Positions 30,768 through 31,392 of a DNA stretch of 64,000 bases are shown piece by piece. The notes beneath the pieces were generated by a model. That model made no database searches and was not told where the DNA came from. It saw only the letters and a list, made by a program, of their open reading frames with translations. How positions within the stretch are numbered: position 1 is the first letter of the stretch; each line of letters opens with the position of its first letter. The DNA is from Veillonella sp. VA137 (GTDB lineage: Bacteria; Bacillota; Negativicutes; Veillonellales; Veillonellaceae). The DNA lies in assembly GCF_003992015.1 (NCBI RefSeq), contig NZ_RQVK01000001.1, positions 62,001 through 126,000 of the forward strand, written 5' to 3'. A program made the translations under genes and the position numbers.

Positions 30768-30796
30768 TTTACAAAATTAAAATTATCTTATATAAT
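30768..30796 (+). promoter_or_regulatory. Promoter of the SpeD-like gene
   Basis: TTTACA (30768-30773), a 17-base spacer and TATAAT (30791-30796). Transcription should begin near 30803, leaving a leader of only about 20 bases. This favours the start codon at 30824. Confidence 0.7.
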
Positions 30797-30823
30797 AGAC
30801 TATGAATGAAAGTAGGTGAAAAC

Positions 30824-31318
30824 ATGCACGTTTTAGGTGAGCACGTCTTAATTGATTTATATTCTTGCATCGATGAAAAAATAGAATCCCCTGCTGTATT
30901 ACAAGATGCTATTGTAAACGCCTTAGCAATTACGAATCAATGTGTTGAGGAAATTGATTGCCAAATTTTAGAAGATGAAATCTTCTTGGTAGCCGTATCC
31001 CATCATTGCCATGTAATTCTTCATGCGTACCCACAATTAGGCTATGTAGCGGCAGATATATATACATTTGAAAAATCTGTAGAAACCAAAGTAATTATGA
31101 AAGAGTTACAACGTTCTGTAGGTTCTGAAAAAGTAAAGGCTACTAGTATCCGTCGTGGCGACTTCGGTAATGAAAGAGACATGAAGCCTCGCAAACAGTC
31201 TTCTCTGACTGCTATGGGTAGAGTCACACGCACTCGAACACGATTGACAAAAACTGGTAAAAATATTACTTCTAAGGGCGTAAAAGCTATCAAAAAAGTA
31301 ATAGGAAATAACAAATAA
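30824..31318 (+). CDS. SpeD-like protein lacking the AdoMet decarboxylase catalytic residues, with a basic tail
   Basis: A 164-residue protein. Residues 1-108 resemble prokaryotic S-adenosylmethionine decarboxylase (GEHVLIDLYSCID, HAYPQLGYVAADIYTF, RRGDF). The residues that make the enzyme work are changed: the pyruvoyl-forming Ser of the SESH motif is Cys62 (SHHCH), and the proton-donor Cys of DVFTC is Phe82 (DIYTF). His67 is kept. Residues 109-164 are a Lys/Arg/Thr-rich extension absent from normal SpeD. I start at 30824, which has AGGTGA five bases upstream; an ATG six codons earlier is almost at the transcription start. It is monocistronic with its own promoter and terminator. It is probably not a standard decarboxylase; its role is unknown. 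Confidence 0.75.
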   Translation: MHVLGEHVLIDLYSCIDEKIESPAVLQDAIVNALAITNQCVEEIDCQILEDEIFLVAVSHHCHVILHAYPQLGYVAADIYTFEKSVETKVIMKELQRSVGSEKVKATSIRRGDFGNERDMKPRKQSSLTAMGRVTRTRTRLTKTGKNITSKGVKAIKKVIGNNK

Positions 31319-31320
31319 AC

Positions 31321-31374
31321 ATCGAACATACTAACGGCTAGGTCATAATTGGAACTAGCCGTTATTTTGTTCGA
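31321..31374 (+). terminator. Terminator of the SpeD-like gene
   Basis: TAACGGCTAG and CTAGCCGTTA form a perfect 10-bp stem (31332-31341 with 31355-31364), followed by TTTT. An outer ATCGAACA/TGTTCGAT arm extends the palindrome. Confidence 0.85.
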
Positions 31375-31392
31375 TATTATACTGTTCCAACA

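Follow-up and report, generated by a model that had tools for sequence, protein, structure and literature searches.

The closest described relatives of the protein studied here are the class 1B AdoMet decarboxylases (SpeD), such as T. maritima TM0655 and B. subtilis SpeD (TIGR03330, PF02675). Residues S63, H68 and C83 were named as essential in T. maritima SpeD (Li et al. 2023, PMC10407285). The same study describes SpeDA and SpeDC, pyruvoyl-dependent arginine and ornithine decarboxylases that arose as neofunctionalised SpeD duplicates, can coexist with SpeD, and keep the Ser, His and Cys residues and self-process, as well as SpeD-SpeDC fusions of Lentisphaerota and Desulfobacterales in which the degraded C-terminal SpeD domain has lost its active-site residues. 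Among eukaryotic proteins, the trypanosomatid AdoMetDC prozyme is a dead class 2 paralogue that is kept by selection and needs an active partner (PMC5201418), and the N-terminal AdoMetDC-like domain of human spermine synthase (3c6k) is a non-catalytic SpeD-like fold fused to an aminopropyltransferase.

We analysed a 64,000-nucleotide stretch of the genome of Veillonella sp. VA137 (the window), which encodes a tailed paralogue of SpeD. It shares with class 1B SpeD the fold and topology (TMt 0.88), a gapless active-site region, His63/His67 and the pocket residues, but it lacks the pyruvoyl Ser and the catalytic Cys, scores below the TIGR03330 cut-off and carries a conserved 53-residue basic tail that canonical SpeDs do not have. 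SpeDA and SpeDC keep Ser, His and Cys for self-processing, whereas the window protein has lost Ser and Cys and most members of its family lack the self-processing residues. Like the prozyme, the window protein is dead by sequence, but its family persists without an active AdoMetDC partner. The degraded SpeD domains of the fusion proteins are joined to an active SpeD, whereas the tailed protein is free-standing and class-wide, and unlike the spermine synthase domain it is also found in genomes without SpeE. The main finding is larger than Veillonella: a class-wide, tail-bearing family of probable SpeD pseudoenzymes.

The features of the locus are collected in Table 1. By reading of the open reading frames, the upstream neighbour is a FAD-linked oxidase gene and the downstream neighbour a dCMP-deaminase-like gene; since both lie on the opposite strand, the tailed gene is a single-gene unit. 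An alternative in-frame ATG is present at 30806, and the start at 30824 is favoured because of the positions of the promoter and the Shine-Dalgarno sequence. A strong promoter of its own had been claimed for the gene in the initial annotation. A well-matched candidate does precede it, but promoter-like sites in the region are no more numerous than in shuffled sequence, that is, at chance level, and therefore the promoter is plausible and not more. The downstream hairpin has a loop too long for the terminator scan and came from a separate fold of 31319-31378 (-27.3 kcal/mol). No credible known RNA element was found in the leader of the gene.

Table 1. Features of the tailed SpeD paralogue locus (window coordinates)
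Feature	Position	Strand	Basis
Gene for tailed SpeD paralogue, 164 aa + stop	30824..31318	+	ORF list, PF02675 match, family profile
AdoMetDC-fold core, residues 1-111	30824..31156	+	PF02675 residues 7-112, AF2 model, Foldseek
His61-Cys62-His63-Val64, in place of the lost Glu-Ser-His self-processing motif	31004..31015	+	Alignments
Phe82 codon, equivalent of catalytic Cys83 of T. maritima SpeD	31067..31069	+	Alignments
Conserved tail R111-G-D-F-G-N-E-R-D-M-K-P-R, then basic helix (about 130-160)	31154..31315	+	Alignment of 88 relatives, models
Shine-Dalgarno AGGTG	30814..30818	+	5 nt before ATG 30824, read from sequence
Candidate sigma-70-type promoter TTTACA-17-TATAAT	30768..30796	+	11/12 consensus matches
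Candidate terminator: hairpin AACGGCTAG/CTAGCCGTT + flanking pairs, then ATTTTG	31333..31366	+	Fold of 31319-31378

The window protein has the full class 1B SpeD fold. It was matched by PF02675 (AdoMet_dc) with 63.5 bits (E 2.8e-17, cut-off 25) and missed the TIGR03330 equivalog cut-off (54.8 vs 75.65 bits). In the AlphaFold (AF2) model, which was built from 88 family members, pLDDT is mostly 95-98 in the core and 85 for the first ten residues, and a Foldseek search with this model returned T. maritima SpeD (1vr7, TMt 0.88, E 1.6e-9). The two sequences align without gaps around the active site, where S63, E62, H68 and C83 of the T. maritima enzyme correspond to Cys62, His61, His67 and Phe82. 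The initial annotation had read the gapless alignment and the replacement of Ser, Glu and catalytic Cys correctly, and the structure prediction and SpeD-family alignment that it proposed returned the SpeD fold with these substitutions. Its statement that only His67 remains was wrong. Besides this processing and catalytic His, which is present in 86 of 88 relatives, the pocket residues D11, Y13, C15, His63, Y69 and D78 are also kept; His63, which directly follows the lost Ser, is conserved in 86/88 and D78 in 87/88. The Lys/Arg-rich C-terminal tail that it described is real, with a length of 53 residues (112-164). Conservation across Veillonella, which it had named as a check, holds for the tail and does not hold for Cys62, as residue 62 is Phe in human Veillonella, V. 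parvula included. Cys62 is consequently one among several residues tolerated here, and we rejected it as a meaningful conserved nucleophile: sister taxa have Phe, Gly, Ala or Thr at this position, and Gly occupies it in numerous further members of the class.

A profile of Veillonella sequences searched against Negativicutes genomes found the tailed paralogue in 358 of 381 genomes and 97 of 102 genera. About 80 loci were fetched and their proteins aligned; the family alignment used below has 88 rows. The family is defined by a SpeD core, an RGDFGxxxDMKP-like tail and membership of one clade, and the window protein belongs to it on each count. In a search of the phylum, matches inside Negativicutes scored 129-200 bits and reached model position about 150; in 384 Bacillota genomes outside the class they scored at most 113 bits and ended at model positions about 114-129, bar two that are read through a stop codon. 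Twenty of the outside proteins were translated (124-147 aa), and their C-termini are unrelated to the tail. Veillonella peptides, scanned against a genome collection, matched nothing but Veillonella itself and one Negativicutes MAG. A phage or plasmid source of the tail was also considered and rejected: the matches examined carry SpeD annotations, are 112-139 aa long and end before the tail, and the longer tblastn matches in one phage and two plasmid records run past the annotated SpeD stops. Within the range sampled (Bacillota, phages, plasmids), the tail is thus confined to Negativicutes. The tailed gene is missing from four genomes at 91-100% completeness (G007, G016, G280 and G284); therefore it can be lost and is not universally needed. 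In the open-access literature on SpeD with Negativicutes or Veillonella, we found no published account of the family.

In the window protein the tail carries a net charge of +12 at residues 124-164, versus -8 for the core. The family ending consists of RGDFGxxxDMKP, somewhat variable in its D-F-G part, followed by a basic segment with RRVxNTGxK; R111 and P122 are invariant in 88/88 relatives. The distal tail has a mean net charge of +9.8, and the hydrophobic moment of its helix is about 2 sd above that of shuffled sequences. The tail of the window protein, helix included, was modelled at low confidence (pLDDT 47-65), and in a Sporomusa-type member (L117) the model has a strand at 124-129 and a helix at 131-149 in a block with pLDDT 71-84. 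No match was found between the tail and known domains, so its identity as a known domain was rejected, and comparison with solved natural proteins gave no convincing resemblance.

Phylogenetic analysis placed the tailed rows in one clade against 26 canonical SpeDs (SH-aLRT 100), and this monophyly was unchanged with the active-site and tail columns left out. At the Ser position, the 88 rows have Gly (36), Ser (28), Cys (8), Phe (7), Thr (4), Ala (4) or Val (1), and the complete Glu-Ser-His...Cys set is kept in 16 rows, all Sporomusa-type members. The trees require as a minimum about 8-10 changes of Ser state and 5 of Cys state, counts that are approximate because many forks are weakly supported. 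From these trees, the likeliest order of events is that the tail was gained first and catalysis was lost later and repeatedly. Part of the family, the Sporomusa-type members with a complete active site, may still be enzymes. One Sporomusa-type protein (L114, from G309) shows an independent Ser-to-Cys change with the catalytic Cys kept (His-Cys-His...Cys) and is a natural test of self-processing by Cys.

The repeated loss of catalytic residues might be taken to mean that the paralogue is drifting without function, and to this we give a negligible chance. The dN/dS of the window gene against close relatives is about 0.03 (0.02-0.05), which rejects a decaying pseudogene, and the tail motif is almost invariant across the class. 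In human-Veillonella comparisons the tail is the most constrained part of the protein, with dN of 0.03-0.08 in the more divergent pairs compared with 0.18-0.26 for the core, about 2.5-7 times lower; with synonymous sites close to saturated in several of the pairs, dN itself is the safer measure. By these measures the window protein is functional and under strong purifying selection.

Could this function still be decarboxylation? Ser-to-Cys mutants of human AdoMetDC can still be processed slowly. The window protein might accordingly be an active pyruvoyl decarboxylase of the SpeDA/SpeDC type, acting on AdoMet, Arg or Orn through Cys62 or another nucleophile; neofunctionalisation of SpeD into arginine and ornithine decarboxylases is known (PMC10407285), and Glu, Ser and Cys are kept in 16 of the 88 family members. 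We consider this very improbable, given that two of the three residues reported to be essential, Ser and Cys, are both gone and that in sister species with the same tail the Ser site is occupied by Phe, Gly, Ala or Thr.

The distribution of spermidine genes also bears on the role of the protein. The window genome has an intact E. coli-type SpeD elsewhere (TIGR03331, 441 bits, 262 aa) and a spermidine synthase (SpeE). The initial annotation had named the lack of a second full SpeD, together with complementation of a speD mutant by this protein, as counting against its proposal that the protein was recruited to a new role. With that SpeD present, the pyruvoyl Ser and catalytic Cys gone and purifying selection strong, the part of the proposal that concerns a non-decarboxylase role is well supported. 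The novelty was wrongly placed in Veillonella and Cys62, as the tailed paralogue is class-wide, with members whose active site is intact, and residue 62 is Phe or Gly elsewhere.

A dead paralogue and an active SpeD together in one genome recall the trypanosome system, in which the prozyme heterodimerises with the active enzyme and switches it on (PMC5201418), and the T. brucei AdoMetDC/prozyme complex was among the Foldseek matches. Such an allosteric partnership is nevertheless quite improbable here. In Veillonella the active SpeD belongs to another subclass, the E. coli type (262 aa), and in about 70 genomes (counted by hand from search tables; at least 90% complete, at most 5% contamination) the tailed gene is the only AdoMet_dc match; the tailed members read from such genomes all lack Ser. 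A similar argument applies to a structural subunit of SpeE, modelled on the dead N-terminal domain of human spermine synthase. Only the SpeDs of T. maritima and A. aeolicus matched better in structure than spermine synthase, and SpeE was found in 45 of 50 sampled genomes, many without another SpeD, but five genomes (G018, G049, G068, G286 and G288) have the tailed gene and no SpeE, and we see little prospect for this explanation. Four of the five (all except G068; 98-100% complete) have no second SpeD, SpeE or true nspC, and their tailed proteins all lack Ser. The persistence of the gene without SpeD, SpeE and carboxyspermidine decarboxylase argues against AdoMet decarboxylation as the shared role, and equally against prozyme-type SpeD activation or SpeE partnership, both of which were rejected as general explanations.

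Several genomes without a second SpeD seem, from their gene content, to make spermidine via the carboxyspermidine route, the operon of which comprises an arginine-type decarboxylase, SpeE, a carboxynorspermidine-synthase-like gene, nspC, aguA and aguB. Such operons, most with aguB, were observed at L177, L181, L183 and L185 (G250, G264, G268 and G041), in genomes with no Ser-bearing SpeD, where it is not obvious what would supply SpeE with decarboxylated AdoMet. In V. parvula RNA-seq data, the SpeD gene Vpar_0438 was 18-fold down. The genome of strain SKV38 (about 2.1 Mb) has the E. coli-type SpeD at 562 kb and the tailed gene at 1017 kb, and from this gene order Vpar_0438 is probably the canonical SpeD gene; the expression change was left out as evidence on the tailed gene. 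On a Leptospira interrogans replicon (L229, 1501-2853), two adjacent SpeD-annotated genes are followed by speE, the second (867 bp) being annotated as S-adenosylmethionine decarboxylase.

The genomic neighbourhood varies. Of the 89 loci at which a family gene was assigned, 45 (L054 among them) have a ctsR, mcsA, mcsB or clpC gene inside the fetched stretch. In human Veillonella the tailed gene is directly divergent from ctsR, in f3 it lies right after clpC on the same strand, and in the clade of the window it adjoins the FAD-linked oxidase gene and not ctsR-mcsA-mcsB-clpC. At the Sporomusa-type loci L117, L118 and L130 the fetched stretch also has rRNA genes, which may explain the frequent contig breaks at such loci. 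Assignment of function by operon or association was rejected, as the gene stands alone and neither the ctsR-clpC nor the rRNA neighbours are constant.

Taken together, a different, non-enzymatic job is most likely for the tailed SpeD-like protein. We give roughly even chances to a SpeD-derived pseudoenzyme that retains its pocket and docks on an anionic partner through the strand and basic amphipathic helix of its tail. An ancient duplicate of class 1B SpeD would have gained a C-terminal extension (RGDFGxxxDMKP, strand, basic amphipathic helix) that became the important part of the protein, after which the self-processing and catalytic residues would have been lost repeatedly, in the window genome as elsewhere. 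The core, which keeps the SpeD fold and most residues of the pocket wall (Asp11, Tyr13, Cys15, His63, His67, Tyr69 and Asp78), probably still folds, and its pocket may bind a small ligand, AdoMet-like or a polyamine. The partner of the tail would most likely be nucleic acid or the ribosome, and less likely a membrane. The basic tail and the pocket residues still present make plausible the binding of SAM or nucleic acid that was initially suggested.

The same basic and amphipathic helix could instead lie on the inner face of the membrane, making this a membrane or envelope protein, possibly one tied to polyamine-modified peptidoglycan. Polyamine modification of peptidoglycan is a trait of Negativicutes, whose outer membrane is anchored by OmpM to peptidoglycan that bears cadaverine or putrescine (PMC10628300). 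The case is circumstantial, with no signal peptide evident in the window protein sequence and no envelope gene constantly adjacent among the loci, and we hold an envelope role to be unlikely. A possible, if tentative, extension of the docking pseudoenzyme is a class-defining non-enzymatic regulator, in which the SpeD pocket would sense AdoMet or polyamine and the strand and basic helix would signal to RNA or the ribosome, DNA or the envelope, independently of spermidine synthesis; polyamine supply to the modified peptidoglycan is one example of what it might govern.

These results also affect annotation. Two tailed members with Gly for Ser, L123 (105.6) and L162 (77.3), pass the NCBI TIGR03330 equivalog cut-off of 75.65 and would thus be named adenosylmethionine decarboxylase. 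Annotation pipelines can therefore give this label to tailed proteins, and polyamine pathways may be reconstructed wrongly for Negativicutes of the gut, rumen and mouth. If the pseudoenzyme interpretation is correct, the family would be a bacterial counterpart of the trypanosome prozyme, though one that is class-wide and not coupled to SpeD. The tailed family provides a marker, and a point of entry for experiments, in a bacterial class that ties its outer membrane to peptidoglycan modified with polyamines.
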